A stretch of DNA of 64,000 nucleotides from a virus, in the IMG/VR virus record IMGVR_UViG_3300010883_000011, positions 1 through 64,000 of that record; one strand, written 5' to 3'. Shown here in pieces: positions 1 to 64,000 of this stretch (positions within the stretch are counted from its first letter, which is position 1; every line of letters begins with the position of its first letter). Both the position numbers and the translations under genes were made by a program. The notes under the pieces were generated by a model. That model ran no database searches. It was not told the origin of the DNA and saw nothing but the letters and a program-made list of their open reading frames with translations.

Positions 1-356
1 GGGGGTGGGGGGAGGGGGGGGGGGGGGGGGGGCGGGGGGGTGGGCGGGGCAGGGGGGGGGGGGGTGGGGGGGGGTCTGGCATGTCGTAGTGGTTCGGCTA
101 TGTCCGGCTCGGCATGTAGCAAGGCTGTGGTGCGGAAAGGCAAGACTCGGCACGTCGTGATGGCCTGGGCTGGCGAGGCGTGTATTGGATGGGCGTTGAG
201 TGTCATAGAGGTTCGGAGTGTGTTGATTCGGCGTGGTCTGTCGTACTGGTGTGAAGTGTGGTGGTTCGGCGGGGTCTGTAGTTATGGGTGAACGGGGAGG
301 CACTCGGACCTTGTCACAGAAGACTTGGTCACCCGTGCCTCCCCACTCCCTTTGCT
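1..356. other. Poly-G left edge and non-coding G/T-rich gap
   Basis: The first 75 or so bases are almost pure G with a few T, A and C. Real phage DNA rarely looks like this; poly-G runs of this kind are typical of sequencing or assembly artefacts at contig ends, although a G-quadruplex-forming end cannot be excluded. From about 76 to 290 the plus strand is strongly enriched in G and T over C and A. The short open frames there have no convincing start site or protein-like composition. The only clear element is the hairpin at 294-344. Confidence 0.6.
294..344 (-). terminator. Hairpin closing the leftward arm
   Basis: A perfect 10-bp inverted repeat, GGGGAGGCAC at 294-303 and GTGCCTCCCC at 335-344, has a second short stem (GACC/GGTC) inside the loop. 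It lies just downstream of the stop of the last leftward gene at 357, where a transcription terminator would be expected. No T-run follows the stem on either strand, so a classical intrinsic terminator is not proven; it could instead block transcripts arriving from the other side. Confidence 0.5.
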
Positions 357-2666: not shown

Positions 2667-3073
2667 TACGCGCCTCCCTTGAAACTGTCATCATCATCCG
2701 GCGTATCGTCTACCGGACTTAAGATTGCCCATGCCCGGTTCTCGTCTGCCTTGCGAACCCAAAGCACCGGAGCATGAAAGCTAAGGCCGTGGAGCCGGTG
2801 TGGGATGCCAGTCTCTTGGAGTTGACGCATCAACCAGCCGAGCTTTGGCAGGTTGGTTCGCCGCGTGAAGACTTCCCAGTGATTCTCTGGATCGCCCTCC
2901 TCAAACGGCGACAACCATGGGCAGTGAACACAGTGCATCGACCCGCCATCGCAGTTGTCTGCTTGGTCTGATGTGAACCCATTGTTCAGGGCGGTTCCGT
3001 TGCAAGCCGCCTCCGATGCTGCGTCCTGGGCATCAAAGTACCGACCCGCTGCTACGCTTGGGCATTCGGCCAT
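2666..3073 (-). CDS. Hypothetical Cys-containing protein, 135 aa
   Basis: The ATG at 3073 overlaps the stop of the upstream HTH gene (TGATG). The N-terminal half holds five Cys, including a CVHCPW segment and a more distant NCDGG, compatible with a small metal site. The C-terminus is very acidic (DDTPDDDD). The family is not recognised. Its position directly after the HTH gene means the two are probably co-expressed. Confidence 0.65.
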   Translation of the reverse strand: MAECPSVAAGRYFDAQDAASEAACNGTALNNGFTSDQADNCDGGSMHCVHCPWLSPFEEGDPENHWEVFTRRTNLPKLGWLMRQLQETGIPHRLHGLSFHAPVLWVRKADENRAWAILSPVDDTPDDDDSFKGGA

Positions 3074-3399
3074 CACTTGACCCCGCCAACCACATCGTCA
3101 TCTTGAACGATTCGGATCTCACCGGCAGACAACGTGATCTTCTTGTTGCACTCTTTACAGAGCCGCATGATCGCCCACCACGGGGGAATGCGTCGGTCGC
3201 TTCCAGACGCCCACTGGCTGACGTGCTGTGGTCTTACCTCCAACAGCTTCGCAAGGTCTTGGCTTTTTCTGGAATCGTCTTCCTCCATCCACATGCGTCG
3301 CAGTTCCTTGAACAACGAGTTGCGCGGGATATCGGCGTCTGGATTGGCGAATGGGTATTTCTGGGAATCAACGGCGGTTTGGAGTTCTGCGTCTGACAT
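3073..3399 (-). CDS. Cro/YdaS-like helix-turn-helix DNA-binding protein
   Basis: A 108-residue protein with a helix-turn-helix at about residues 44-72: DLAKLLEVRPQHVSQW, then a basic turn and an IPPWWAIMRL helix. The spacing fits Cro/CI-type and YdaS-type repressors, which bind short palindromes as dimers. The ATG at 3399 has GAGG seven bases upstream. A plausible but unproven target is the inverted repeat found inside leftward promoters at 6853, 9119 and 10517. It overlaps the next gene by one base and follows the sigma-like gene after two bases. Confidence 0.7.
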   Translation of the reverse strand: MSDAELQTAVDSQKYPFANPDADIPRNSLFKELRRMWMEEDDSRKSQDLAKLLEVRPQHVSQWASGSDRRIPPWWAIMRLCKECNKKITLSAGEIRIVQDDDVVGGVK

Positions 3400-3401
3400 A
3401 T

Positions 3402-3911
3402 CTACCTCACTTGTGTTCTAAGGATTTGTCCAGAAAGCCTGTAAAGACGGGCGTTCCTGGCTGTGATACCGCACCCAAGCTGTTCACGAATCTCTGTTCC
3501 TGACAGGCCGACCATCAGGGATTCACAGGCTTCGCGTTGATTGGGTGTGGCGAGTTCAAGGGTTTGCTTGACCAGAATCGATTGCTCGATCTGTCTCGCG
3601 CCGTCGTCCACCCCGCTTAGTGCGGTCTGGTCGACGAAATCTGCTGGATCGGTTGCAAGCTCCCTGCTGTTCTTTCGCACCATTCGTGTCTGAACAGCAC
3701 GGATGCGCCAGACGATGAAAGTGGATGGCTGGCCCTTGGTGGGATCGTATTTGTGGGCTCGTTCCCCGAGGTCTACGACGACTTGCGCGTCCAGTTCCTC
3801 GTTCTCGATGTTGGGGTGACAAAAACGGTTCACCAGTTTTGTGATCCGTTCCTTGTGTTGGAGAACGAAACTCCAGGCTGCTGCTTGTTCTGATAGTGTT
3901 TGTGGGGGCAT
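3402..3911 (-). CDS. Sigma-70-like factor
   Basis: A 169-residue protein shaped like a minimal sigma factor. Residues 40-80 resemble region 2 (ELDAQVVVDLGERAHKYDP, then STFIVWRIRAVQTRMVRK), where the -10 element is melted. Residues 125-165 resemble region 4 (LATPNQREACESLMVGLSG, then a basic helix), which reads the -35. The ATG at 3911 has AGGA six bases upstream; a longer frame to 4091 only overlaps the previous gene out of frame. It could redirect host RNA polymerase to phage promoters such as the TGTGGCTATAAC sites. Moderate certainty, since short HTH regulators can mimic region 4. Confidence 0.6.
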   Translation of the reverse strand: MPPQTLSEQAAAWSFVLQHKERITKLVNRFCHPNIENEELDAQVVVDLGERAHKYDPTKGQPSTFIVWRIRAVQTRMVRKNSRELATDPADFVDQTALSGVDDGARQIEQSILVKQTLELATPNQREACESLMVGLSGTEIREQLGCGITARNARLYRLSGQILRTQVR

Positions 3912-3918
3912 TGTGGTC

Positions 3919-4122
3919 CTATTGGCGGGGCGTGTTGGCATGAGCGCATGAGTGCCATGCGTCAATGGATTGGGATTCAGGCCAGATCTGGCCGTGGCGG
4001 GATTGCCATGTTTCCATGGAGCGGGTGTGGCAGTCGGTGACCACCAGCAGGGCTTCGTCTTTGCGTTGTAGCCAGAGGCCAAACACGACAACGAGTGAAA
4101 GGGTGAAAGCGATACGAATCAT
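3919..4122 (-). CDS. Small exported or membrane-anchored protein, 67 aa
   Basis: The ATG at 4122 overlaps the upstream stop as ATGA and has GGGGAAG upstream. Residues 1-19 are a hydrophobic helix after MIR, then a charged QRKDE turn, so it is either a signal anchor or an uncleaved signal peptide. The remainder is hydrophilic with two Cys and several Trp and His. Function unknown. It lies in the coupled run between the DUF7694-like and sigma-like genes. Confidence 0.55.
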   Translation of the reverse strand: MIRIAFTLSLVVVFGLWLQRKDEALLVVTDCHTRSMETWQSRHGQIWPESQSIDAWHSCAHANTPRQ

Positions 4123-4802
4123 TCTTCCCCCTCAAAGGACATCGCAAGAGCGCGGTCTACTTGCTTGTCTTGTTCTGGGTTCCCTGACTTGGCGGTTTCA
4201 GCAGCCTGTATCCGCTGGTCTTTTGGGATCTTCCGAAACGCCCTGGCATACAAGGGGATCACGTCCTTCTCCAAGTCGTCAGGTGCCATGTCCTCCGTGA
4301 AGGATCGTTGGCGTCCACCGGGCGGCGGTTCCTGGCAAACGTATCGCCCGTCCCGCATCATGTACGGCAACGTCGGCCACTCCCCGTCTTCGGTGTACGG
4401 GACGAGGCAATAGATATGGTATTGGTTCGCGGTATCTACAAGTTCCGATTCCGGTGGGAACACCTGGAACGCATAAGACTCTGGCCCGATCAATTCGGAC
4501 TTGATCCGCTGTACGTCACGGAAGTCTGTGATGGCGATGTTGTCCAGCCTCTTGAGTGAGACATGGACAAATGGCGGCATTCCATTCGGGGGATGCTCCA
4601 CAGGGTATACAGCCACCTGATACCGACTGTTGAGAAAGATGGCGGCACCCGCCCAATGCGCTTTGTCGCCTTGTGCTGGAACGAGCGGGGTCCACGGCTT
4701 GTCTTGCACTACCATGACGGAGGCGTGGTGCGACGACTCGCTTTTCCGAACAATCGTACTCATGCCGTGACGGCCTTTACGGTTTCTACTTCCCTTGCTC
4801 AT
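4119..4802 (-). CDS. DUF7694-like phage protein
   Basis: A 227-residue protein. The central part (N-S-R-Y-Q-V strand, SLKRLDNIAITDFRDVQRIK, GPESYAFQVFPPES, VDTANQYH) matches the pattern I associate with the uncharacterised DUF7694 family of phages and prophages; no biochemical role is known. The N-terminus is basic (SKGSRNRKGRHG) and the C-terminus acidic. The start is ATG 4802, with AGGAGG seven bases upstream; the extra residues of a longer frame to 4853 overlie the preceding gene. Confidence 0.7.
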   Translation of the reverse strand: MSKGSRNRKGRHGMSTIVRKSESSHHASVMVVQDKPWTPLVPAQGDKAHWAGAAIFLNSRYQVAVYPVEHPPNGMPPFVHVSLKRLDNIAITDFRDVQRIKSELIGPESYAFQVFPPESELVDTANQYHIYCLVPYTEDGEWPTLPYMMRDGRYVCQEPPPGGRQRSFTEDMAPDDLEKDVIPLYARAFRKIPKDQRIQAAETAKSGNPEQDKQVDRALAMSFEGEE

Positions 4803-5274
4803 CGTCGTCCTCCTGTCCCGCCTTGTGGTGGTAGTTGAGTGGTTCTGGTTCAACCGGGGTACCCATCGAGATCTCCAAGACCGCTTTCAGCGCCTGCATA
4901 CGGTCTTCCTCTGTTGGTGGTTTCGGATCTTCGAAGTCGGGGACCGGGCACGCCATGTCATGTTCATGCTCGTCAAAGAAGAAGCCCTGGTCATCCGACG
5001 ACTTCGAAGGTGTGTAGTCTGTGGGGCTTCCCGCTTTCAGCCAGCAAGCCTCATGGTGGCAACAGGGCTCATGTGAGAGCACCCCGTTGACCCACGTTCC
5101 ATAGTCGATGGGGCGGCTCTCCACGCGCCCGTAACCGTCGTAGATTCCTTTCAAGATCGACCCGGTTGCTTCAATCACAACCACGCTCCGCATCCAATCA
5201 TTGCTGGGGCTCGCTGACCATTCACTCAACATAGGGTGGCCGCAGCCTTGGCAGTCCCATGAGAAGAAACCCAT
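4786..5274 (-). CDS. Hypothetical CxxC protein, 162 aa
   Basis: The protein begins MGFFSWDCQGCGHPML, so a CxxC knuckle lies at the very N-terminus; a second group (CCHHEAC) at about residues 70-76 could complete a zinc site. Proteins starting this way are common in phages, of unknown function. ATG 5274 overlaps the preceding stop (TGATG) with a G-rich ribosome site. The C-terminus is acidic (QEDDDEQ). Confidence 0.7.
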   Translation of the reverse strand: MGFFSWDCQGCGHPMLSEWSASPSNDWMRSVVVIEATGSILKGIYDGYGRVESRPIDYGTWVNGVLSHEPCCHHEACWLKAGSPTDYTPSKSSDDQGFFFDEHEHDMACPVPDFEDPKPPTEEDRMQALKAVLEISMGTPVEPEPLNYHHKAGQEDDDEQGK

Positions 5275-5675
5275 CACGCACCCCCTTCGGCAGCGATGTC
5301 TCGGAACGGAACCCACGGGTTTTCAGGGTCGTTGTTTGAGTGCGGATCGCTGTGCTTGCGGTCTACATCTTTGAGTTCACGGGTATACGGGGCTTGCTTG
5401 CCGCCGCTTGTAGTCCAGACCTCTACCCGTCCACAACGGTTGCAGGTTGAATGGACCCAGATGCCGATCCCTTCCATGTCTACGCGGTGTGTCCAGACTT
5501 CGGTGTCTTCGTCCCAGGCTTCCATCATCGTGAAGCCGCAATCGTTGCAAGCGACAGATGACCCAAGGGCTACAGGTGCGAGGTTGAAGTCAACTTCGTT
5601 CGGCACTTCCAGCCTTGACAATAGGATTTGGTTTGGGCGGTGCGTTTTCGGCGTCCAGTCAGAAGGTAGAGTCAC
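5274..5675 (-). CDS. Hypothetical zinc-ribbon-like protein, 133 aa
   Basis: Two CxxC knuckles, CNDCG and CNRCG, are separated by about 35 residues, which suggests a zinc ribbon. The start is GTG 5675: it overlaps the upstream TGA as GTGA and has GGAGG seven bases upstream. An upstream in-frame stretch to 5828 overlies the previous gene and looks like noise. The function is unknown; a nucleic-acid-binding role is only a guess from the fold. Confidence 0.65.
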   Translation of the reverse strand: MTLPSDWTPKTHRPNQILLSRLEVPNEVDFNLAPVALGSSVACNDCGFTMMEAWDEDTEVWTHRVDMEGIGIWVHSTCNRCGRVEVWTTSGGKQAPYTRELKDVDRKHSDPHSNNDPENPWVPFRDIAAEGGA

Positions 5676-6475
5676 TTGCCACCTCCCTTGACTTCTTCGA
5701 TCTTGGATGAGTCCTGGTTCATTTCCTTGGCACAAGCCTTGGAGCAAAAGGCGTCGACATTCGGTCCCTTGAGAGGGTGGTCGTTGTAGTAGCGATGAAG
5801 AATGGCTCGCTTCGGAATCAATGACCATCGGCGACGAGTTGGTTTGCGGCAGCAGCTACACCGGCGCTCGGGTCGCTGGCTTTCTTGCAGTCTCGCTTCT
5901 ACCCACAAAGGGTGCTCGATGGGCTCGCTGTTGTTGTTGCTCCAGTTTGTCTTGACGCTTGGCAGCGGTGGCTCTGCCCTTTGTTGTCCACCCCGCTTTG
6001 GCTTCTCTTTGGCCGGTGGCGTGGTCCCTTCGACGTGTACCGTTTCGTCAACCTCGACGTAGGGCGCAAAGCCCTCAACCAGCGGGATCACAACCCGCCC
6101 CGCTTTCTTCACGGCCTGCACAGTCTTCACCGTCGTCGTGATTGTCGGAAAGACGGACAGAGAATGATCAGCAGCTACAAGTGGGGTTCCTGTCTTGTGA
6201 GTCTGAAAGTCCCACGCAACTTGGTCATAGGACAAGCCTCCGCACTTGGGACACCAGATGTCGGGGCACTTCATGTTGTCCCGTCCTGGCCGTTGTCCTT
6301 TGAAGCTGATGCAGAGGTCATGCTCGATACAGCGCAAAACGTATTTGTGGGACGGATCGGGAGGCTCCAAGCCTGCTTGATCCGCTTTGTAAAGGGCGAC
6401 CCTGCTCTTCGTCAGAGTCGACTTGGAGTGCAGGATGCAACCCGGCTCTCCGTTTGTGTTCCATAGTTTGGACAT
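5672..6475 (-). CDS. Hypothetical protein with several zinc knuckles, 267 aa
   Basis: Two candidate metal sites: an N-terminal CPDIWCPKCGG and a C-terminal CSCCRKP plus CSKAC. Between them is a Pro/Lys-rich linker. The C-terminal part (basic RRRW, then SKACAKEM) looks like a treble-clef or MYM-type zinc finger. ATG 6475 is preceded by AGGGAAAATCA, the shared A/C-rich leader, so this gene probably starts a translation unit. I do not recognise the family. Confidence 0.65.
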   Translation of the reverse strand: MSKLWNTNGEPGCILHSKSTLTKSRVALYKADQAGLEPPDPSHKYVLRCIEHDLCISFKGQRPGRDNMKCPDIWCPKCGGLSYDQVAWDFQTHKTGTPLVAADHSLSVFPTITTTVKTVQAVKKAGRVVIPLVEGFAPYVEVDETVHVEGTTPPAKEKPKRGGQQRAEPPLPSVKTNWSNNNSEPIEHPLWVEARLQESQRPERRCSCCRKPTRRRWSLIPKRAILHRYYNDHPLKGPNVDAFCSKACAKEMNQDSSKIEEVKGGGK

Positions 6476-6517
6476 TGATTTTCCCTGTTGGTGGAAAAGT
6501 GGTTGGAGGATAGTGAG

Positions 6518-6802
6518 TCAGTCCACACGCCAACCGCGCTCGGCGACTTGCGTTGGGGTGAGGTGGAGGCCGTCCTCTCGGATACGTCGTTCCCCTTCTT
6601 CGGACAGCATGAGGCCGTCAAGGGTAGTGAGGAAGACGTTGGCGTCTTCTACCAGAACAAGGGGCTTGTCATTCGTCCTGTCGCCGCTGAGGAAAGCAAC
6701 CGCGTGCCTCGGAGCACCTTGCCGTTTTAGTGGGACGGCAACGAGGTGGTGCCATTTCTGGGGATCGGAGAGGTAGTCAATACTTTGTTGCGGTTCTTTC
6801 AT
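6518..6802 (-). CDS. Hypothetical protein, 94 aa
   Basis: A small soluble alpha/beta-type protein, first gene after the promoter at 6851-6879, with AGGA upstream of the ATG at 6802. No recognised motif. Because its promoter carries the arm-wide operator, it probably belongs to the same regulon as the MoxR and VWA genes. Confidence 0.65.
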   Translation of the reverse strand: MKEPQQSIDYLSDPQKWHHLVAVPLKRQGAPRHAVAFLSGDRTNDKPLVLVEDANVFLTTLDGLMLSEEGERRIREDGLHLTPTQVAERGWRVD

Positions 6803-6850
6803 TGTCGGTGTCCTGAAGGTGTTGGTGGAGGGCTTCTACCCTCTACTATG

Positions 6851-6879
6851 TTATAACCTTTTTCTGGGTATATCGTCAA
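6851..6879 (-). promoter_or_regulatory. Sigma-70-like promoter with operator copy
   Basis: On the minus strand TTGACG (6874-6879), a 17-bp spacer and TTATAA (6851-6856) form a promoter for the 6518-6802 gene. The plus-strand sequence ATAACC-N7-GGGTAT at 6853-6871 sits inside it and matches the operator GTAACC-N7-GGTTAC of the 9119 and 10517 promoters at 9 of 12 arm positions. Confidence 0.55.
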
Positions 6880-7307
6880 CCACTATTTTCAAAAGAATGT
6901 GGATGAAGTTTTGGTGCGAGTTCCATTGGTGGTTGAGAGCCATACCTGTCAAGCCAAACGCTTTTCAGGATGCCGTATGTTCTGCCGTCAAGTTTTGCTC
7001 TGACGTGTCCACCGAGAACGTGCCAAAGGGCTCGGTCAAGAGCGTGTTCTTGCGGGAGCGTGAGTTGGTTCCTGGTAGCTGCTGAATAAAACTCCCGCAG
7101 TTTGGGATGTAGTGACACCCAGATACGCGTCATGGCTCGTAGCCGCACGATATCGTTTCCTGTGAGTCCGTCGTGTCCCTGGATAGCGCCATAGAGCCCC
7201 TCCAAAAGGGCGCCAACCGGTTGCCATGCGTCCATTTCACGCAAGGGTCGGACCTCAAGCGCCAAGGTGGAAAGAGAGACAAGTTCTTGCAGACGTTTAT
7301 CGTTCAT
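6876..7307 (-). CDS. Hypothetical helical protein, 143 aa
   Basis: Mostly amphipathic helices, no signal or membrane segment, no motif I recognise. ATG 7307 has GGGAG eight bases upstream; it overlaps the preceding gene by 11 bp, suggesting coupling. The 3' end touches the -35 box of the next promoter. Confidence 0.65.
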   Translation of the reverse strand: MNDKRLQELVSLSTLALEVRPLREMDAWQPVGALLEGLYGAIQGHDGLTGNDIVRLRAMTRIWVSLHPKLREFYSAATRNQLTLPQEHALDRALWHVLGGHVRAKLDGRTYGILKSVWLDRYGSQPPMELAPKLHPHSFENSG

Positions 7308-7542
7308 CGGAATCTCCCTTGCGCGGCATCGAGACGGTCACTTTGAATTCGGTTCCGTTCTGTGCTTTGAAAACGAGACTGTTCTTTTCGCGCCGGAACG
7401 AGTCGGGTGAGAGCCCTCTTTTCGCCCACGGGGAAGATGCCATTACGATCCGCATCGCGGGCGTAGAAGCCAAGACCAACAGGGCGTCTTGAAGAAGATC
7501 GAGCATGTCTCGCTTTCTCGGGTTTCTGGGGGGAAGACTCAT
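7297..7542 (-). CDS. Hypothetical protein, 81 aa
   Basis: A basic protein beginning MSLPPRNPRKRDML, with a short hydrophobic helix (LLQDALLVLASTP) and an Arg/Lys-rich remainder. ATG 7542 has AGGAG upstream. It directly follows the VWA gene and could belong to that unit. The intergenic space (7543-7582) holds a copy of the GTCCACCCCGC repeat. Not recognised. Confidence 0.6.
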   Translation of the reverse strand: MSLPPRNPRKRDMLDLLQDALLVLASTPAMRIVMASSPWAKRGLSPDSFRREKNSLVFKAQNGTEFKVTVSMPRKGDSDER

Positions 7543-7582
7543 TGTTCTCTCCTGTCCACCCCGCTTTGTGCGGTGGTGTCGT

Positions 7583-9091
7583 TCATTTGTGCATTCCTCT
7601 GGTCATGCGCCCGAAAGAAGAAGCCGGGTCTTGCGCCCGGTCCAGGTCTTCGGATTCATCGCAAAGGGATTGGACGGCGGATGAGATGGACCCGCCATTG
7701 ACGGTCAAACCGTATACGCGGAGGCCACGTTCCTTGCATTCGTTGAGGTCACGGATGATGTCGGCAGATGCGCTTGCACCGCCATCGGTCACGAAGATGA
7801 GGTCTGCTCGGTCTTCTCGCACACCGGAGTTCAGCGCATAGTCGAAGATGACATTGAAGTCCGTGCCGCCTTCGCAGTTTTGGTTTGCGACAGCAAGCGC
7901 CAGCGGTCCAACACCGCCAAGGTCAGCCCAGACTTCTTCCGGGTCACGCGGCGAAAGCTGCTGTGCCTTGCCACTTGCGGTCAAGCGGTAGACGCTGCGG
8001 ATCCTCGTATCAAAGCCGATGATTGTGACCTCTCGCTTTTGTTGGGCTGCTTGGCCGATGCAGGCGAGGCCGATGGCCCTGGCCCAGAGGTGAGGGTCGC
8101 CGTGCATTGAACCGGACTCGTCAAGCATCACGACTATCGGACCACGTCCCTGCGGTTCGCGTCCCTCCATCGAATACTGGAGTGCGCGGGCCTCGGCGAT
8201 GTTCAAGAGAAGCAGCCATTCCAGATCTTCGTCCATCAGCTTCATTGTCTCGGAGGGGAGGAGCCGGGGGATGTCGTCACCGAATTCGACGCCAACGATC
8301 TCTTCCTTGTTCTGCGTGACAGTGGGCTTTGAGCGGCCAGCGATGCGTTGGATTCTACCTGCTCGCCGGATAGCCTCTTGCATCCTGGGATCGTTCATCA
8401 GGCGTTCTGCAAGGTTCATACGCGCCGGGTCGTGTTGCATGTGTTGTGGCGGGCAGTGTTCGGTTCCGGGTGCCAGACCAGAAAGCGCCTCTTTTCCATC
8501 AGCTACTTCGTCTGCGGCTTTCTGGCAGGCAGACCGCATCGCAGCCTTCATGCCGTCCTGTGCTGACGGTAGACCTTCGGGGCACGGGTCTTCTCCGTTT
8601 TCGCTCCGTTCTTCCTCTTGCCGTGACTTCTCAATAAACTGTTCAAGCTGCTCGGCTGTTCTTTGGATGACGCCAGCAGCAGCCAGAGCGGAGAAGTCCG
8701 GGTCGCCTGCGACTTGTTGACGCAGGCTGTCCCATTCGGGAAGCTCCCCCAGCATGTCCTGCATCCAGGTCATCCACTGTGGAGCGGTGCTGTTTTCGAT
8801 GCGTTCCGGGTTTCCATAGAGGCGTGAAAAGACTTCGCCCCCGAAGACGTTTGCGTCATCGTTGGTGAGGGACGGGAGATCCCTCGGTGCGTCGTCCACC
8901 CCGCCCGCTGCGCCGTCGTTGCGGTATGCGTTCATCAGCGCATCCTCTACCGCAAAATGGGCCATACCAAGTGCGCCTTCCTCGCTCACCCGGCCATCGT
9001 AGAGGCAGCGGTGCCACCGCGAGACATCGAAGGTACCCCGCCGGTTTTCCTCGGTGAAGAAAGCTGCTGATTTCGTTTGGTTGAAAGCCAT
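7583..9091 (-). CDS. VWA-domain protein, ViaA/CoxE-like partner of MoxR
   Basis: A 502-residue protein. The N-terminal 300 residues are helical and include an acidic Gln/Glu-rich linker. From residue 315 there is a von Willebrand A domain with a complete MIDAS start: DESGS at 324-328, after a hydrophobic strand. ViaA-type VWA proteins act with MoxR ATPases in remodelling or metal-insertion machines; the VWA domain binds Mg2+ and a partner or substrate. The MoxR gene lies immediately upstream. It has its own promoter (9116-9144) with a perfect operator and an A/C-rich leader ending CAACAGGGAAAACATC. The substrate is unknown. Confidence 0.85.
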   Translation of the reverse strand: MAFNQTKSAAFFTEENRRGTFDVSRWHRCLYDGRVSEEGALGMAHFAVEDALMNAYRNDGAAGGVDDAPRDLPSLTNDDANVFGGEVFSRLYGNPERIENSTAPQWMTWMQDMLGELPEWDSLRQQVAGDPDFSALAAAGVIQRTAEQLEQFIEKSRQEEERSENGEDPCPEGLPSAQDGMKAAMRSACQKAADEVADGKEALSGLAPGTEHCPPQHMQHDPARMNLAERLMNDPRMQEAIRRAGRIQRIAGRSKPTVTQNKEEIVGVEFGDDIPRLLPSETMKLMDEDLEWLLLLNIAEARALQYSMEGREPQGRGPIVVMLDESGSMHGDPHLWARAIGLACIGQAAQQKREVTIIGFDTRIRSVYRLTASGKAQQLSPRDPEEVWADLGGVGPLALAVANQNCEGGTDFNVIFDYALNSGVREDRADLIFVTDGGASASADIIRDLNECKERGLRVYGLTVNGGSISSAVQSLCDESEDLDRAQDPASSFGRMTRGMHK

Positions 9092-9115
9092 GATGTTTTC
9101 CCTGTTGATGTCTAT

Positions 9116-9144
9116 ATTGTAACCGGGGTCCGGTTACTTGTCAA
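9116..9144 (-). promoter_or_regulatory. Consensus promoter and perfect operator for the VWA gene
   Basis: Minus strand: TTGACA at 9139-9144, 17-bp spacer, TACAAT at 9116-9121. The spacer is filled by a perfect palindrome, GTAACCGG-GGT-CCGGTTAC on the plus strand, at 9119-9137. A protein bound there would block polymerase, so repression is the likely mode. Confidence 0.75.
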
Positions 9145-9230
9145 TGCCTTTGTGGGGATTTATTTCTTTTATTTGGAGGGTAGGTTCTGGCCAGACCCCA
9201 ACAGACTGACCAGAACCGTGACACCGTCCA

Positions 9231-9246
9231 CCCCGCCGGAGCGGGG
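9231..9246 (-). terminator. Hairpin after the MoxR gene
   Basis: CCCCGC-CGGA-GCGGGG directly downstream of the MoxR stop (9249) forms a 6-bp GC stem with a tetraloop. It overlaps a GTCCACCCCGC repeat copy (9226-9236). There is no T-run, so it is a weak or factor-assisted terminator at best. Confidence 0.35.
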
Positions 9247-9248
9247 GT

Positions 9249-10460
9249 TTAGATGCCCAACGCCTCCCTAGCGATACGCGCCACCTTCAGTTGCATCGCA
9301 GCGATCTTGTCCGACAATCCCTCAACCTGTCCCGATTGGCCGAGCTTCTGAAGTTCCTTGACGATCTTCTTCAACTCGGAGTTGATTGCGCCAAGCGCCC
9401 CGGAATCGCCAATCGCCGATGCCTGCTCCACGTTGCGGCGAATCATATCACCCGTTCTCGGATCGAGGACTTCGATGCCGTTTGCGTAGATTTCCACCGC
9501 CGCGTCATGCAGCTTCATAGCTGCTTCAAGGTCTGGACTCACCAGCTTGGCGACACAGTTGAGAACCTTCGGATGGTCGACTTCTGGGTCCGCGACGATG
9601 ATATCTGCCAGCAGCAGGAGATCGGTCGGCTCGCAGACCATGCGACCCTGAACAACGGCATAGGCGCAAAGGGCGTCGATGATGTTGACCAGGGAGCGGT
9701 CACTGACTTCGATTGCGTGCTGCCGCCCGAGTTCTTCCAATACGTCGCACAGTAGTTCCTCAATGGGAGAATAGTCGACGTTCTCGGCGGCGTTCCGCAG
9801 GCATTCCAGGCCCGCCGGTGACAGGGTATTGTGAACCTCGATTGTCTCGCCCTTCCGCTTCATCGCCATAAGACGCAACCGATCTGCCCGGTCCTGCAAG
9901 GGTGTCACCCAGCGCCGAAAGAGGAACCTGTCCCAAAGAGCGTGCAGATCGTCCGACTGCGGCAATTCGTTGGAACATGCCATCACCATTTGGAGGGGGA
10001 TGTCGATGCGCCCGCAGGTGCCGTTGTCGTATTGCTTTTCATTGATGGCAGTGAGGATGCTGTTGTTTGCACCGGACGAGCCCTTCCAGATTTCGTCCAG
10101 CAGCGCCACCTGACACTGGCCGAGACGGTTGGTCAGAATCCGCTTGTATTGCCCCTTCTTCAAGAGAGGGAGATCGTAGGGTCCGAAAAGTTCTTCTTGC
10201 GTGGTGTCCTTGCGGATCAGATAGGTGAAGAAGTCCATTCCGAGCGCCTTTCCAAAAGCACTTGTGAGGGCTGTCTTCGCCACGCCGGGAGGTCCACCGA
10301 AGAAGACGTTTTTGCGGGCGATAATAGCGACGAAAAGAATCAGGATTTCCTGGTTCCGTTGAATGAACCGGCTATCCATTTCTCTCATCAGCGAATCCAT
10401 CTCGCCGTGGGCTGCTTCAAACTCTTTGGTGTCTATTGCCTGGAGGGTCTTGGTGGCCAT
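9249..10460 (-). CDS. MoxR-family AAA+ ATPase, RavA-like
   Basis: A 403-residue ATPase. Walker A GGPPGVAKT is at 55-63, Walker B VALLDE at 118-123, sensor-1 Asn in ACSNELP near 164 and an Arg finger in the LWDRFLFRRW segment near 178. The FTYLIRKDTTQEELFGP and LLDEIWKGSSG segments are close in pattern to the RavA branch of MoxR proteins. A helical C-terminal lid follows. RavA-type ATPases work as hexamers with a VWA partner, and here the VWA gene lies next downstream. Transcription starts from the 10514-10542 promoter. The target is unknown; in phages it might be host protein remodelling or virion assembly. Confidence 0.9.
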   Translation of the reverse strand: MATKTLQAIDTKEFEAAHGEMDSLMREMDSRFIQRNQEILILFVAIIARKNVFFGGPPGVAKTALTSAFGKALGMDFFTYLIRKDTTQEELFGPYDLPLLKKGQYKRILTNRLGQCQVALLDEIWKGSSGANNSILTAINEKQYDNGTCGRIDIPLQMVMACSNELPQSDDLHALWDRFLFRRWVTPLQDRADRLRLMAMKRKGETIEVHNTLSPAGLECLRNAAENVDYSPIEELLCDVLEELGRQHAIEVSDRSLVNIIDALCAYAVVQGRMVCEPTDLLLLADIIVADPEVDHPKVLNCVAKLVSPDLEAAMKLHDAAVEIYANGIEVLDPRTGDMIRRNVEQASAIGDSGALGAINSELKKIVKELQKLGQSGQVEGLSDKIAAMQLKVARIAREALGI

Positions 10461-10513
10461 TGTCGGCCTCCTTGGTGTTGGGGTTGTTGGTGTTGTTCCT
10501 TGTTGGTATATAC

Positions 10514-10542
10514 ATAGTAACCGGAGCAGGGTTACAGGTCAA
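10514..10542 (-). promoter_or_regulatory. Promoter and operator for the MoxR gene
   Basis: Minus strand TTGACC (10537-10542), 17-bp spacer, TACTAT (10514-10519). An inverted repeat, GTAACCGG-AGC-AGGGTTAC, lies at 10517-10535 in exactly the same position relative to the boxes as the operator of the VWA gene. Confidence 0.7.
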
Positions 10543-10592
10543 CAGAAAAGTCAGAAAAGATTGATCTTTTTTCGACCCCTTTTTAGCAGCTA

Positions 10593-10620
10593 CGACCCGG
10601 TGACAATCGCCACCGGGTCG
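10593..10620 (-). terminator. Hairpin between the 10647 gene and the MoxR promoter
   Basis: A perfect 10-bp stem, CGACCCGGTG / CACCGGGTCG, with an 8-base loop. It lies between the stop of the leftward gene at 10647 and the next promoter, the expected place for a terminator. It lacks a T-run on the minus strand. Confidence 0.45.
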
Positions 10621-10646
10621 CGTCTGCGGGGTGGACCGTAGAGCGG

Positions 10647-11201
10647 TCATTCGTCAATCGAGCCAGAAAGTGGTTCTCGGAGTGGAGCGGTACAATCGTG
10701 GAACCGACCCACAGACTCCGTTGAATCAAATTCAATGACAGCACCAAGCGTGCCATCTTCATTGATCTGACGTTTCCAAAGTCGGCTGGTAGTCGCGCCG
10801 TTGAGACTGGCGAGGACGATTTCCTCCCGTCCTGGGTAGTCCTCAAGACTGCCGCCAGAAGCGATGAACGCAGCAGCCTTCGATGCTTCGCTGGATGGGG
10901 CGTCTTCGTTGACGGTGTACGCTTCACAGATCTGGATGACGAAATCCGGTTCCAGAACTTCCAGTGCGGTTTTTACCAGGAAGGCTTGAACGTCCTTGCT
11001 CACGTCATTCCAATCTTCGAATGGGGGAGGCGGCGGAATCAGTTGAATTTGGCGTTGTCCATCCAATGGGTCGCGGCGTAAAGCAATCCAAGTCACGGGG
11101 ACTTGCAGCCCGTCCTTGGCTCGCTCCTCGCAGACGAAGTCAAAAAGATTCCGTATTGCTTCAGAGGCTTCTTCTTCTGTCATTACATTGTGGGCTGTCA
11201 T
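10647..11201 (-). CDS. Hypothetical protein, 184 aa
   Basis: A soluble, acidic protein with no recognised family. The N-terminal half is helical (TEEEASEAIRNLFDFV); a PPPPPF segment lies near residue 60. ATG 11201 is preceded by an A/C-rich leader with CAGGGAAC. It lies between the 429-residue gene and the MoxR gene, so it is a candidate fourth member of that module. Confidence 0.65.
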   Translation of the reverse strand: MTAHNVMTEEEASEAIRNLFDFVCEERAKDGLQVPVTWIALRRDPLDGQRQIQLIPPPPPFEDWNDVSKDVQAFLVKTALEVLEPDFVIQICEAYTVNEDAPSSEASKAAAFIASGGSLEDYPGREEIVLASLNGATTSRLWKRQINEDGTLGAVIEFDSTESVGRFHDCTAPLREPLSGSIDE

Positions 11202-11231
11202 GGTGTTGCTGTTCCCTGCTGGTGGTGGAAT

Positions 11232-11262
11232 GCCCCCGCCTGACAGAATGCCCGGCGGGGGC
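11232..11262 (-). terminator. GC hairpin after the 429-aa gene
   Basis: GCCCCCGCC at 11232-11240 pairs with GGCGGGGGC at 11254-11262 (9 bp, 13-base loop), 18 bases after the stop at 11280. There is no T-run. It could attenuate rather than stop read-through into the 10647 gene. Confidence 0.4.
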
Positions 11263-11279
11263 TGGTGGTGTTGTGGTTT

Positions 11280-12569
11280 CTATGCTGCCAGGATTGCTTC
11301 AATCATGGCGTCCCGAGTCAACGCACCCGGCTCTTCGCCCAGGACCGTCGAGTACGCGGTCTTGAGGTCATCGTCTGACTTGTTGTTCAGCTTGGTAGCC
11401 GGTCCTTCCTGCTCGGCTTCTGGGGTGACCGTGGCGGCAACGTCTACTGCCTGCACGGTGGCGGGCGTGTCGGCGAGCGGCCTGATGACCAGGAAGCCCT
11501 TGGTCAAGGTACCCCGGAACCCCAAAGACCCGAGAGCCTTGCCACCCGAGTTTGTGCGGCTGTAGTAGGTAGCGTGCGTGAACGCAGACTTGGACAGACC
11601 GGACTCCTCAAGGTCAGCCGCCGGAACACGACGGACGCCATCAACGATGGGATACGTCTCTTCGTCCTCGGTGAACGAGGAATAGATCCGCACCAACCGT
11701 GGGCTGGGCTTCCATTCATCGTCTGTACCGAGAAGCAGACGTGCCTCGGCAGAAGCGGTGTCGATTTGATCTGTCAGGTCTTGCAATCCGATTTCAAGAG
11801 CGTCCTGGTACAGTTCAGCAGCTACCTTCAACTCCTGAAAATCGGACAGTACGCCTGAAACCGCGTCGGACCGTGGACGGTTGTTGCGTGCGTCTGCCGT
11901 CCATTCGGCCATCTGCGCCAGCAAAGCACTCAGTCCAGATTCGACTTGTCCACGAGCAATCCCCTGTGCGTCTTGGATTGTCTCGGCATCGTTGGCGTCG
12001 ACTTTCAGGGACCGGAGACTGCATCCACCGATTTGTGACAACACCCTCTTGAGAGCGGCTGTCGTGTCTTCGTGTCCAGGCAGAATGAAGTAGACGCCGG
12101 ACTTCAGGGTCATCTGCCCTGGGATGTTGTCAAAGGTCTTCTGGAGAATGTGCGGTCGGAGGAAATTGTGATCGAGAAAGTTGCGTTCCAGATCTGCCCG
12201 ATCCACGAAGCGGGAGGCGGCATCGCTGGTGCCAGTTGACACCCAAGATTCCGCGCCCTTGTCGAAGGTGACCAGATCAACTTGATCCGCGCCACTTTCC
12301 TTGAAGCCACGCTTCACCTTCTTCAAAATTCCAACGTCGATGCTTGCGTCATCTTCGTGAACCTTGTCACTGTAGAAGGCATCGGCCTTTCCACGACCGT
12401 GCGTAAAATTGGATGCTACTCGCTTGACGGCAGATGCGTGATTGATGTCGGGCACCTTGAATGACAGGCCCTCGCCTGCGAGCAATGAACGCAACTTGGT
12501 TGGCGTCACGCGACTGTCCTCAAGATTCCAATAGATCAAGTATCCGATATTTTTGATTGCCTTTGCCAT
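11280..12569 (-). CDS. 429-aa protein linked to the MoxR-VWA module
   Basis: The N-terminus (IGYLIYWNLEDSRVTPTKL) and general length recall an uncharacterised family I associate with DUF6744, with low certainty. The middle is helical, and the last 40 residues (NNKSDDDLKTAYSTVLG, then EAILAA) look like a SAP/Rho-N-type helix-loop-helix, often nucleic-acid-binding. It is the first gene of the leftward arm, with a sigma-70-like promoter at 12629-12657. Co-regulation with MoxR and VWA suggests a joint function, perhaps as substrate or adaptor; this is inference. Confidence 0.65.
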   Translation of the reverse strand: MAKAIKNIGYLIYWNLEDSRVTPTKLRSLLAGEGLSFKVPDINHASAVKRVASNFTHGRGKADAFYSDKVHEDDASIDVGILKKVKRGFKESGADQVDLVTFDKGAESWVSTGTSDAASRFVDRADLERNFLDHNFLRPHILQKTFDNIPGQMTLKSGVYFILPGHEDTTAALKRVLSQIGGCSLRSLKVDANDAETIQDAQGIARGQVESGLSALLAQMAEWTADARNNRPRSDAVSGVLSDFQELKVAAELYQDALEIGLQDLTDQIDTASAEARLLLGTDDEWKPSPRLVRIYSSFTEDEETYPIVDGVRRVPAADLEESGLSKSAFTHATYYSRTNSGGKALGSLGFRGTLTKGFLVIRPLADTPATVQAVDVAATVTPEAEQEGPATKLNNKSDDDLKTAYSTVLGEEPGALTRDAMIEAILAA

Positions 12570-12872
12570 GATGGGCTCCTGTTGATTGGGTTGGTGTTGG
12601 GTCTTCGTTGTCCCGAATCCCTACTATACTTATACCCCGGAACGGTTAGATTGACAAGGGAAAAGGGGGAAAATATGTAGAAAAAGTCCTGTTTTTAGGT
12701 ATTTGCAAGGATTCAAGGTATTTAGCCAATAACTTTTTGTTGGTTATCGCACCACCCTGGCTGCTGATAACTGTCGAGAAAACACGAGGTGGACGAAAGT
12801 ACGGGCATACGCGATCCTCGCTTTTCGGTTAGGATGGCAAACGCGCCATGATAGGGTTTGGTCGGAGGCAAA
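12570..12872. promoter_or_regulatory. Divergent regulatory gap between the two arms
   Basis: About 300 bases without a gene separate the leftward arm from the portal gene. The sequence from 12650 to 12740 is purine- and AT-rich. It holds the leftward promoter at 12629-12657 and, on the plus strand, a perfect TTGACA at 12651-12656 whose best -10, 17 bases on (TATGTA), is poor. The two -35 boxes overlap in TTGACAA, so the promoters may compete. The 12841-12872 part contains only out-of-frame start codons and the GGAGG ribosome site of the portal gene. Confidence 0.55.
12629..12657 (-). promoter_or_regulatory. Promoter of the leftward arm (429-aa gene)
   Basis: Minus strand TTGTCA (12652-12657), 17-bp spacer, TATAAG (12629-12634), with a second TATAGT just downstream. 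The spacer holds a degenerate relative of the operator, ATACCC-N6-GGTTAG (plus strand 12632-12649), one base shorter than the perfect copy at 9119. Confidence 0.6.
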
Positions 12873-15425: not shown

Positions 15426-15518
15426 CCTTGACGGGGAACTATCCGACGAGCTACTCTACCGCAGACGCCCAACGAGGCGCGTGCGGTCCCGATTCAGATA
15501 AAAGTGGAGGACTCCACG

Positions 15519-61132: not shown

Positions 61133-61387
61133 GTGGCGAATTGTAGACTGTATAAACTTGACGCAAGAGATCTGGATCGCGCAGTAGACGATCCAGCGTT
61201 GACCGCTATTCTTAGGCAGGGCTGGTCAGTAGTTGCTCCAGTTGCCTTAGAGGACAAAGGAGTGGTGTCGGTCGCGCTGATCTTGGCACCACCGCCCCCA
61301 TTGGATTGGAAGAGAGGGCTTCTGCTCGGACTCTCTGTAGCTATAGGCTCGTTGGTTGGTGGATTCCTTCATGGGGTTCTCTTGTGA
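61133..61387 (+). CDS. Small membrane-anchored protein, 84 aa
   Basis: Starts at GTG 61133 with AGGAGG six bases upstream. After a soluble N-terminal domain (ILRQGWSVVAPVALEDKG) and PPPP is a C-terminal hydrophobic helix ([23 protein letters not shown]). It overlaps QueE by four bases, so the two are coupled. Function unknown. Confidence 0.65.
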   Translation: MANCRLYKLDARDLDRAVDDPALTAILRQGWSVVAPVALEDKGVVSVALILAPPPPLDWKRGLLLGLSVAIGSLVGGFLHGVLL

Positions 61388-62055
61388 TTATCAAAGAGAT
61401 CTTTCCCACGCTCCAGGGGGAGGGTAGCAAGGCTGGTCGGCCTGCTGTCTTCATTCGGTTGGCTGGCTGCAATCTGTGGTCTGGAAAGGAAGCGGGGCGT
61501 TCTACAGGGAAAGGCACTTGTGCGTTGTGGTGTGACACAGACTTCGTCGGCGGAACCAAATACAACACTCAAGAACTTTGGGAAACGGTGAATAATCTGA
61601 TGCAGGGATGGGCCGCCCCATTCGTTGTCATCACGGGCGGGGAGCCAGGGCTACAGCTTCAAAAACCCGAAAACCGCGAAACCGTTACCTTCCTTCTTGA
61701 ACGTGATGTTGCCGTCGCTGTGGAAACCAATGGCACGATATCATGTGTCGCTTTCGATCTCTTGATGGACTTTCCTAACGGACACCTCACTGTCAGCCCA
61801 AAGATGTTGGGCAACGATATCGAAAGCCTCCACCATATCGTTCAGCGTCGCGGTACAGATCTCAAAGTGGTCGTTCCGAGTGAAGCGGCCCTGCATCTTT
61901 CTGAAATGGATACCTGGGACTTTGAACACAAGTACATCCAACCGCTGGACATAGGGGACACCGGAAGCGAGGCTTTGCCATCGTGCATGGGTGTCGCACA
62001 GGGTCTTGGGTGGTCTGTGTCGGTACAAACACACAAACTGATAGGTCTACCATGA
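61384..62055 (+). CDS. queE: QueE, 7-carboxy-7-deazaguanine synthase
   Basis: A 223-residue radical SAM enzyme starting at GTG 61384, which overlaps the preceding stop. The N-terminal IFPTLQGEG and [14 protein letters not shown] and the later [13 protein letters not shown] and ETNGT segments are those of QueE. It rearranges 6-carboxytetrahydropterin into 7-carboxy-7-deazaguanine, the ring-forming step of preQ0 synthesis. The cluster Cys are C29, C46 and C50, giving CX16CX3C instead of the CX14CX2C I know from related enzymes. Overlaps folE by four bases. Confidence 0.9.
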
Positions 62056-62636
62056 ACGAGAAACCTTCAAGAGAAGCAGCAGAAGAAGCAGTCAGAACCC
62101 TCCTGCGGTACGCAGGCGACAACCCAGACAGGGAGGGGCTGGCCGGGACACCGGGCCGGGTGGTACGCGGCTATGACGAATGGTTCGGCGGGTACCGCCA
62201 AGACCCTGTGTCGCTGATGTCTACCACCTTCGAAGAAATCGAAGGGTATGACGAGATCGTCGCTCTACGAGACATTCGGCTGGAGTCCCATTGTGAACAC
62301 CACATGGTTCCGATCATTGGCAAGGTTCATGTTGCGTACCTACCGACCAATCGGGTCGTTGGCATTTCCAAGCTGGCGCGGGTGGTAGAGGCGTATGGAA
62401 AACGTCTTCAGATACAAGAGGTCTTGACAACCCAAATCGCCGACGCAATCGAGGAAGCTCTTGAGCCACGGGGGGTGGCGGTCGTCATTGAAGCATCGCA
62501 CATGTGCATGTCCACTCGGGGCGTCAGAAAGCACGGCGTGTCAATGTGGACTTCGGCTATGCGTGGCGTGTTCAGAGATAAACCAGAAGCCCGCCAGGAG
62601 GTTCTTTCTCTTCTTGGCGTCAGCCGATTGCGCTAA
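62052..62636 (+). CDS. folE: FolE, GTP cyclohydrolase I
   Basis: A 194-residue enzyme beginning ATG 62052, overlapping the queE stop. [19 protein letters not shown] and [10 protein letters not shown] carry the zinc ligands of GTP cyclohydrolase [11 protein letters not shown] and [19 protein letters not shown] are also typical. It converts GTP into dihydroneopterin triphosphate, the precursor for both folate and deazaguanines. The genome setting shows the deazaguanine use. Confidence 0.95.
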
Positions 62637-62660
62637 CCCCTACGCCACACTGGAGAACTT

Positions 62661-63404
62661 ATGGCACTTAGTATGGGACATATAGACAACCAACACGAAT
62701 CAGATCCTCGCTCCAAGCGAGCGATTGTTCTGCTGTCGGGTGGGCAGGACTCCACCACCTGTCTGTATTGGGCGCTGGATCGGTTTGAAACGGTACATGC
62801 ACTCTCAATCAACTACGGACAGAAACACCACATCGAAAACGATGCCGCGAAGAAGATCGCTGAGATGGCAAACGTGTCGTTGGAGATTCTGGATCTGCCC
62901 CGCCTTCTGGTTGGTACCAGCCCGCTTGTGAGTGATAATGAGCTTGGCAAATACGACAACGCAGAGGAGCTACCGGGGGGGATTGAGCCAACCTTTGTCC
63001 CAGGACGCAACGCCCTGTTCCTCGTCATTGCCGCCAACCGCGCCATGGCAAAGGGCGCACGGCATATCGTGACGGGCGTGTGCGAAGAAGACTATGGGGG
63101 CTATCCGGACTGCCGACAGGTCTTCATCACTTCAATGCAGAAGTCTATCGGGCTCGCCATGACTTCCAATGAAGCAGAGCTTGAGATCCATACACCGCTC
63201 ATGTCCCTCAACAAGAAAGCCACCGTCTTTATGGCGCAGCGGTTCGACGGCTGCATGGACGCCATAGCGTGGTCGCATACCTGCTATGAGGGGTCGTGCC
63301 CGCCGTGTGGTGAGTGCCATGCGTGCATTCTACGCTCAAGAGGGTTTGAGCAGGCCGGGGTAGCAGATCCGCTTGTCGAACGATGCGAGGCCACAAATGT
63401 CTGA
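62661..63404 (+). CDS. queC: QueC, preQ0 synthase
   Basis: A 247-residue enzyme of the ATP pyrophosphatase type. SGGQDSTTCLYWA is the PP-loop near residue 27, GQKHHIEN and FVPGRNALFL are typical, and SCPPCGECHACILR carries the zinc Cys. It turns 7-carboxy-7-deazaguanine and ammonia into preQ0 with ATP. GGAG lies six bases before the ATG. It overlaps a membrane microprotein that leads to the DpdA-like gene. Confidence 0.95.
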   Translation: MALSMGHIDNQHESDPRSKRAIVLLSGGQDSTTCLYWALDRFETVHALSINYGQKHHIENDAAKKIAEMANVSLEILDLPRLLVGTSPLVSDNELGKYDNAEELPGGIEPTFVPGRNALFLVIAANRAMAKGARHIVTGVCEEDYGGYPDCRQVFITSMQKSIGLAMTSNEAELEIHTPLMSLNKKATVFMAQRFDGCMDAIAWSHTCYEGSCPPCGECHACILRSRGFEQAGVADPLVERCEATNV

Positions 63405-63531
63405 AAAGATGAACGTCAATGAAGCGATGAGTGGTTGCCTAATGCTCTGCGCCAGCGCCAGCATCATGTTGCTGGGGATTGGAGGATTCGTTTTCCTTCT
63501 GTCCAAGTCTGGTTGTATTGGTGCCGGGTAG
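63397..63531 (+). CDS. Membrane microprotein, 44 aa
   Basis: ATG 63397 overlaps the queC stop. A short polar start is followed by one long hydrophobic stretch (LMLCASASIMLLGIGGFVFLL) and a brief KSGCIGAG tail. Wedged between queC and the transglycosylase gene. Function unknown. Confidence 0.5.
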   Translation: MSEKMNVNEAMSGCLMLCASASIMLLGIGGFVFLLSKSGCIGAG

Positions 63532-64000
63532 GTGGGGCTATACGCGCCAGCCAGGGATCGTGAGTTTGGTGTCTTGATGTCATTTCACTATTTCCAAAAG
63601 GACGATATCTCGCGCATGGTAAATGGTTGGCCGTGGCGACCTAAGATCTTCACGGACTCGGGCGGCTTCTCTGCCCATACGCAGGGGTGCGACGTAGACC
63701 TGCACGACTACGCCCGCTGGATACGCAAACACCAAGGCGTCATAGACCATTATGCGAATCTGGATGTGGTGTATGACTGGAGAAAGACTCTCCAGAACCA
63801 GCTTCGAATGGAACGGCTTGGCTTGAGGCCGATGCCCGTGCTTCACTTCCGGTCGCCTGTAGAGGAGATCGAGAGGTACAAGAGGCGTGGCTATGACTCC
63901 ATGTGCTTGGGGGGGCTTGTTCCCTACAACCTCTACATTAGCCGGGCCTTGGCCTCGCTTGCTGGCTCAAGAGATCCGGCAAGTCTTCCCAGGGCGGAGG
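63532..64000 (+). CDS. dpdA: DpdA-like 7-deazaguanine DNA transglycosylase (partial)
   Basis: Runs off the window after 156 codons. FTDSGGFSA (Asp42 when counted from GTG 63532) matches the DSGGF motif of tRNA-guanine transglycosylases, and YANLDVVYD, NQLRMERLGLRPMPVLHF and MCLGGLVPYN are the DpdA-type continuation. DpdA swaps guanine in DNA for preQ0 or a derivative. The GTG 63532 start keeps a conserved first strand (LYAP...LMSFHYF); ATG 63577 is the alternative. Its placement behind queE, folE and queC supports the DNA role. Confidence 0.85.
   Translation, partial: MGLYAPARDREFGVLMSFHYFQKDDISRMVNGWPWRPKIFTDSGGFSAHTQGCDVDLHDYARWIRKHQGVIDHYANLDVVYDWRKTLQNQLRMERLGLRPMPVLHFRSPVEEIERYKRRGYDSMCLGGLVPYNLYISRALASLAGSRDPASLPRAE

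Follow-up and report, generated by a model that had tools for sequence, protein, structure and literature searches.

Several promoters of this virus appear to share one short inverted repeat, and the question is whether it is the operator of a common repressor and which protein would read it. The window, i.e., the stretch of 64,000 nt that was analysed, spans positions 1-64000 of a virus record of 85,772 bp (G000). The preliminary description reported GTAACC-N7-GGTTAC, or copies related to it, in four promoters of this window. The dyad search was extended beyond the window to all 85,772 bp, and genes were called with a simple codon model. The features considered here are listed in Table 1.

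Table 1. Predicted promoters, putative operators and genes discussed in the text
Feature	Position	Strand	Remarks
Candidate regulator gene, XRE/Cro-type HTH protein of 108 aa	3073..3399	-	Weak but consistent HTH matches in Pfam and PHROGs; orthologs in G010, G005 and G011
Gene for sigma-70 region-2-like protein of 169 aa	3402..3911	-	Pfam Sigma70_r2, E = 2.9e-7; directly upstream of the HTH gene
Promoter TTGACG-18-TATAAC (or TTGACG-17-TTATAA)	6850..6879	-	Putative operator with one mismatch, 6853-6871
VWA (CoxE-like) protein gene	7583..9091	-	Pfam VWA_CoxE, E = 1.6e-6; downstream of the 9116-9144 promoter
Sigma70-type promoter TTGACA-17-TACAAT	9116..9144	-	Serves VWA gene 7583-9091; exact putative operator 9119-9137
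MoxR-type AAA ATPase gene	9249..10460	-	Pfam bpMoxR, E = 7e-40; downstream of the 10514-10542 promoter
Promoter TTGACC-17-TACTAT	10514..10542	-	Serves MoxR-type gene 9249-10460; exact putative operator 10517-10535
Conserved gene, no assigned function	11280..12569	-	Orthologs in G010 and G005, same gene order; downstream of the 12629-12657 promoter
Promoter TTGTCA-17-TATAAG	12629..12657	-	Serves gene 11280-12569; half-degenerate putative operator 12632-12648
Isolated dyad ATAACT-N7-GGTTAT	12729..12747	.	Between divergent genes; the -35 at 12657 follows 72 bp downstream
Rightward promoter with dyad	69872-69900	+	Register identical to that at 9116 and 10514

Gene content of the record

Genes encoding portal, capsid, terminase and primase-helicase proteins were present in the record. 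No integrase was identified among the approximately 50 proteins scanned, and this virus is therefore likely, though not proven, to be a virulent phage. The 7-deazaguanine pathway is represented by FolE, QueC and QueD-like proteins recognized by Pfam as well as by QueE-like radical-SAM and DpdA/TGT-like proteins. The respective genes are located at 61384-64000 of the window and at 64001-65637 and 83128-84045 of the record. DNA modification by 7-deazaguanine synthesis and the DpdA/TGT-like genes is probable. Scans of the window for Rfam families and tRNA genes gave no matches. The two ends (window 1-120 and record 85680-85772) are G-rich, of low complexity and have GGCATGTCGTAGTGGTTCGGCTATGTCCGGC in common, possibly due to a terminal overlap or an assembly artefact.

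Dyad-bearing promoters of the window

The promoters at 9116-9144 and 10514-10542 were said to carry the dyad at exactly the same place, and this is what the sequence contains: in both cases, it is separated from the -35 hexamer by 1 bp and extends 3 bp into the -10 hexamer. On the minus strand, these promoters read TTGACA-AGTAACCGGACCCCGGT-TACAAT and TTGACC-TGTAACCCTGCTCCGGT-TACTAT, and the corresponding dyads are GTAACC GGGGTCC GGTTAC and GTAACC GGAGCAG GGTTAC. The former promoter received the top score of all promoters in the 85.8-kb record.

The closely related copy and the degenerate copy mentioned in the preliminary description were also found. The former, located in the promoter originally delimited as 6851-6879, reads ATACCC-N7-GGTTAT on the minus strand, i.e., one mismatch from ATAACC-N7-GGTTAT. 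If TATAAC is taken as the -10 element, with an 18-bp spacer, this copy has the same register to the -10 as the dyad at 9116, and its distance from the -35 is greater by 1 bp. The promoter is the only good one ahead of the gene run from 6802 to 357, which includes the genes for the sigma-like and HTH proteins. The degenerate copy, TAACC-N7-GGTAT, has one half intact and the other degenerate, and is shifted by 1 bp relative to the -10 of the 12629-12657 promoter. No convincing promoter was found around the isolated dyad at 12729-12747, which could be an auxiliary operator or a chance occurrence (about 0.8 such dyads are expected per genome). The designation of the promoters as leftward holds for the four in the window but not for most of the sites; these are located outside the window, at 69.9-79.3 kb, and more than half of them belong to rightward promoters.

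Abundance and location of the dyad

The record contains 20 copies of TAAC-N9-GTTA versus 0.79 expected (Poisson P = 2e-21). This is the most over-represented of all 256 x 13 four-base dyads (spacers 0-12, whole record), and 300 Markov simulations averaged 0.33 copies and never exceeded 3. The exact core TAACC-N7-GGTTA was detected six times versus 0.06 expected. The arms of the dyad are reverse complements of each other, with no constraint on the seven central bases. A loose count in the window, allowing three mismatches, was barely above background (24 versus 17.1 expected) and uninformative; exact cores and the whole record were therefore used.

The dyad is not as common inside genes as in promoters, and the preliminary description stands in this respect: 19 of the 20 TAAC-N9-GTTA sites are intergenic, with intergenic DNA comprising 16% of the record (P = 1.4e-14). 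The sole genic copy, at 1868, matches the number expected by chance. About 15 sites are located inside sigma70-like promoters, many of them in a cassette array at 73.4-79.3 kb. Scoring of sigma70-like promoters in the whole record revealed the dyad in nine of the ten best intergenic matches and in none of the 13 genic promoter-like ones. The long structural-gene block is almost devoid of such promoters. The observation of a repeated dyad in promoters is confirmed, and the set is larger than first reported.

The array at 73.4-79.3 kb (L005:3400-9300) comprises small genes and holds about 15 TAAC-N9-GTTA sites; its small-gene cassettes have putative operator-promoters of their own. The rightward cassettes display an A+T-rich block, a -35-like element, the dyad, the -10 and, mostly, a CCAACAAGG leader. 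The -35 elements of the array promoters are poor (GAGACT or TAGAGA), so that an activating role of the operators is possible there. Six array sites face leftward (73482, 73671, 75095, 75186, 76945 and 78525). No leftward gene was found behind any of these six; a good -35 is present at four and GGTGACG just after the -10 at five of them. At dyad 75308, no evident promoter was found.

Two further repeats were noted in the record. The repeat GTCCACCTCGC occurs in 23 copies on the plus strand and none on the minus strand; 22 copies are intergenic, and most are located at 72-80.6 kb. Five copies of GTCCACCCCGC are located at 3606-9226. The short repeat (T)CAGCAGCTAC includes AGCAGCTAC, with 14 copies on the plus and four on the minus strand, several of them just upstream of array operator-promoters.

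Candidate regulator

The product of 3073-3399 was initially proposed as a Cro/YdaS-like regulator. This label proved to be weak: the Pfam matches to YdaS (PF15943; E = 0.0029, 17.8 bits versus a gathering score of 30), HTH_3 (E = 0.024, 15.1 bits versus 23) and P22_Cro (E = 0.05) are all below the gathering scores, as is that of the G011 ortholog to HTH_26 (19.0 bits versus 22). Most of the weak Pfam matches of the HTH proteins belong to the XRE/Cro-C1 class, and 'XRE/Cro-type HTH' appears to be the safer label. The AlphaFold model of the protein is poor (pLDDT 57); its best fold matches in PDB are to HigA, with YdaS lower, at E of 1 or worse. The best match in a PDB profile search had E = 0.03. 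The recognition helix region reads LEVRPQHVSQWASG. No second XRE-type HTH protein was identified among the approximately 50 proteins of the record scanned with Pfam.

As a candidate, the protein gained independent support from the phages related to this virus. Terminase homology revealed 13 relatives among viral contigs, while a search of these contigs with the MoxR protein gave none. An HTH ortholog is present in three of the terminase relatives (G010, G005 and G011), and a profile search of the viral contigs revealed nothing beyond these three. The G011 ortholog, encoded on a 19-kb fragment, is 37% identical to the product of 3073-3399. That fragment contains a single exact dyad, located in the consensus promoter TTGACA-AC-TAACCAAAGCAAGGT-TATAAT (17-bp spacer), and the gene of the ortholog follows at a distance of about 30 bp. 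Since the exact core is expected only about 1e-4 times per given 100 bp by base composition, this placement argues strongly for a pairing of the site with the regulator and for autoregulation of the HTH gene there.

The situation is different in G010 and G005. The exact dyad is absent from both, and the variant TAACC-N8-GGTAT occurs once per record, before a gene of the run: in the promoter of the MoxR ortholog (9249-10460) in G010 and upstream of the ortholog of 11280-12569 in G005. The recognition helix reads PQHVSQW in the 3073-3399 protein, PQVASTY in G011, and EQAVSQW and QQAISQW in G010 and G005, respectively. Site and helix thus seem to change together which, with one variant site per record, is only suggestive. 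The sigma-70 region-2-like gene also has syntenic orthologs in G010 and G005.

The cassette array was sought in G005, G001 and G007 and not found there. A record of another relative, G008, contains an array of about eight cassette promoters (L051 400-6900) with a conserved and less symmetrical spacer motif near ATAACnCAnnATGyTATAT; this is perhaps a diverged counterpart of the dyad system. Another element, TTGACG-N15-RGCTAC, occurs with exact spacing once per record in seven records, i.e., at 15428-15454 of the window and in G001, G003, G004, G005, G007 and G010. It sits between the portal and prohead-protease genes and is possibly a late promoter without an operator.

Occurrence of the dyad in other phages and genomes

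Outside this record, the promoter-embedded dyad was detected in 12 viral contigs and in 26 contigs from genomes, most of the latter being from Clostridia. About half of these dyads adjoin an XRE-type HTH gene of one of two families and are sometimes located in that gene's own promoter; the five HTH neighbours checked were assigned to HTH_3 in Pfam. Judging from gene neighbourhoods, XRE-type genes do associate with the dyad-in-promoter geometry elsewhere too. A number of Clostridia loci (L014, L016, L017, L020, L033, L042 and others) have ATAACC-N7-GGTTAT in the same register, with the HTH gene adjacent or driven by the promoter. They usually possess one to three sites near the regulator gene, in contrast to the genome-wide set described here, and their HTH proteins need not be orthologs of the 3073-3399 product.

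The decoy dyad TCAAC-N7-GTTGA gave one match in the viral contigs and the composition-matched dyad TACAC-N7-GTGTA gave 62. In view of these counts, no particular enrichment of the TAACC dyad in phages is asserted here. A dyad in the promoter spacer is a common phage layout that is not specific to the 3073-3399 protein family; this lends support to the mechanism proposed below and makes the layout itself less new.

Proposed mechanism and alternative explanations

In our opinion, TAAC(C)-N7-(G)GTTA is quite probably the operator of a phage XRE/Cro-type HTH repressor, most likely the 3073-3399 product. The perfect dyad located in the spacer and overlapping the -10 fits repression by a dimeric regulator, as predicted in the preliminary description. 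The sites with their statistics and register, the HTH gene and the arrangement in G011 are observed, whereas repression is inferred from the position over spacer and -10, and dimeric binding, timing and the identity of the binder in the phage are likewise proposed. A repressor dimer would bind one operator over the promoter spacer and the start of the -10, thereby blocking RNA polymerase from the promoter. Approximately 15 sigma70-type promoters would be controlled in this way: the four leftward ones of the window, those of the array at 73.4-79.3 kb and a further one at 69.87 kb. The regulator gene belongs to the run that is probably transcribed from the operator-bearing promoter at 6850-6879, which would result in autoregulation. 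With putative operators in most host-type promoters, accumulating repressor could turn off the early programme, its own gene included, and operators with one imperfect half might differ in the repressor level at which they are occupied or vacated.

We see a small but appreciable chance that this phage, probably a virulent one, possesses a timing switch made up of the HTH protein and its neighbour in the gene run, the sigma-like protein. The former would shut nearly all host-type promoters, including its own, and the latter would redirect RNA polymerase to late promoters lacking the operator, for instance the conserved TTGACG-N15-RGCTAC behind the portal gene. The leftward operator-promoters of the array would yield regulated antisense RNAs against the small-gene cassettes.

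The dyad might also be read by a host-encoded regulator (LexA-, CtrA- or Xre-like) that couples the early genes of the phage to the state of the host. The same dyad is found in the same register in unrelated Firmicutes elements and phages, so that several different proteins can read it, and phages using host-regulator sites are known, such as CtrA in phages of Alphaproteobacteria (PMC9437464). This phage, however, possesses an XRE-type HTH gene, the ortholog of which lies directly behind the site in G011, and operator and recognition helix differ together among the relatives. We regard a host regulator as unlikely. Considerably less probable still is that the dyad is a promoter element for the sigma-like factor 3402-3911 rather than an operator. 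The phage does encode a Sigma70_r2 protein, and the -35 regions of the array promoters are non-canonical. Sigma factors, however, read asymmetric elements, whereas this dyad is symmetric, with seven unconstrained bases at its centre. Good sigma70 hexamers are already present in the promoters at 9116, 10514 and 69872, and the structural-gene block, the expected place of phage sigma action, is almost without dyad sites.

Activator, looping or partition (ParB-like) sites, some of them maybe relics copied with the cassette array, are an equally improbable explanation. It agrees with the presence of a ParB_N-like protein encoded at 64460-65224 (E = 6.6e-4), of dyads without an evident promoter (12729 and 75308) and of leftward sites without a gene at 73.5-78.5 kb. 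The fixed register to the -10 observed for most sites would, however, be needless for partition or looping. MerR-type activators need spacers of 19-20 bp, whereas the spacers here are 16-18 bp long.

Comparison with known systems

A literature search for a TAACC phage operator revealed no report. The putative operator and HTH protein described here represent a concrete, sequence-defined candidate pair, with its predicted regulon listed, in a phage whose named relatives are all distant. They open the question of how a Cro-type protein is used by a phage probably lacking lysogeny genes. The occurrence of ATAACC-N7-GGTTAT in promoter spacers beside several XRE-type HTH families may help to assign operators to such proteins.

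The half-sites of the dyad resemble those of two HTH antitoxins, MqsA (AACCT-N3-AGGTT; PMC4894380) and PaHigA (TTAAC..GTTAA; PMC6987408), which combine promoter repression with autoregulation through AACC/GGTT or TAAC/GTTA half-sites. Both are toxin-antitoxin systems with shorter spacing, and their kinship with the 3073-3399 protein is at the level of the HTH class only. The dyad is not the MqsA operator: its AACC/GGTT arms are spaced by 7 bases versus 5 in MqsA. Many small genes of cluster K mycobacteriophages are likewise preceded by inverted repeats, named SAS/ESAS (PMC3203893). These are 17-bp imperfect repeats tied to start codons and of unknown function, while the dyads described here reside in promoter spacers.

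The L5 repressor has more than 20 sites over the mycobacteriophage genome, in promoters and intergenic spaces (PMC9283540), and the present phage is similar in having about twenty sites of one kind dispersed over its genome. The L5 stoperators are asymmetric, monomer-bound 13-mers, many of which are located outside promoters and stop elongation (PMC9283540); the sites examined here are dyads, mostly inside promoters, and thus not of the stoperator type. In the phage SPbeta, one protein, MrpR (YopR), acts on about ten short SPBRE repeats in the promoters of dispersed phage genes, and SPBRE had been proposed to be a repressor site on computational grounds ahead of the discovery of its binder (PMC10516654). 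The repetition of one site across promoters of dispersed genes is shared with this phage, in which the binder is a candidate proposed from sequence. MrpR, a relative of the tyrosine recombinases, maintains lysogeny (PMC10516654), whereas the candidate regulator is a small XRE-type HTH protein and no integrase occurs among the proteins scanned. With 20 near-identical sites, 19 of them intergenic and about 15 in promoters, the dyad system has the appearance of a dispersed regulon. By function, it likely belongs to the dispersed single-operator class, with an XRE-type HTH protein as the candidate regulator, and corresponds to neither MrpR nor L5.
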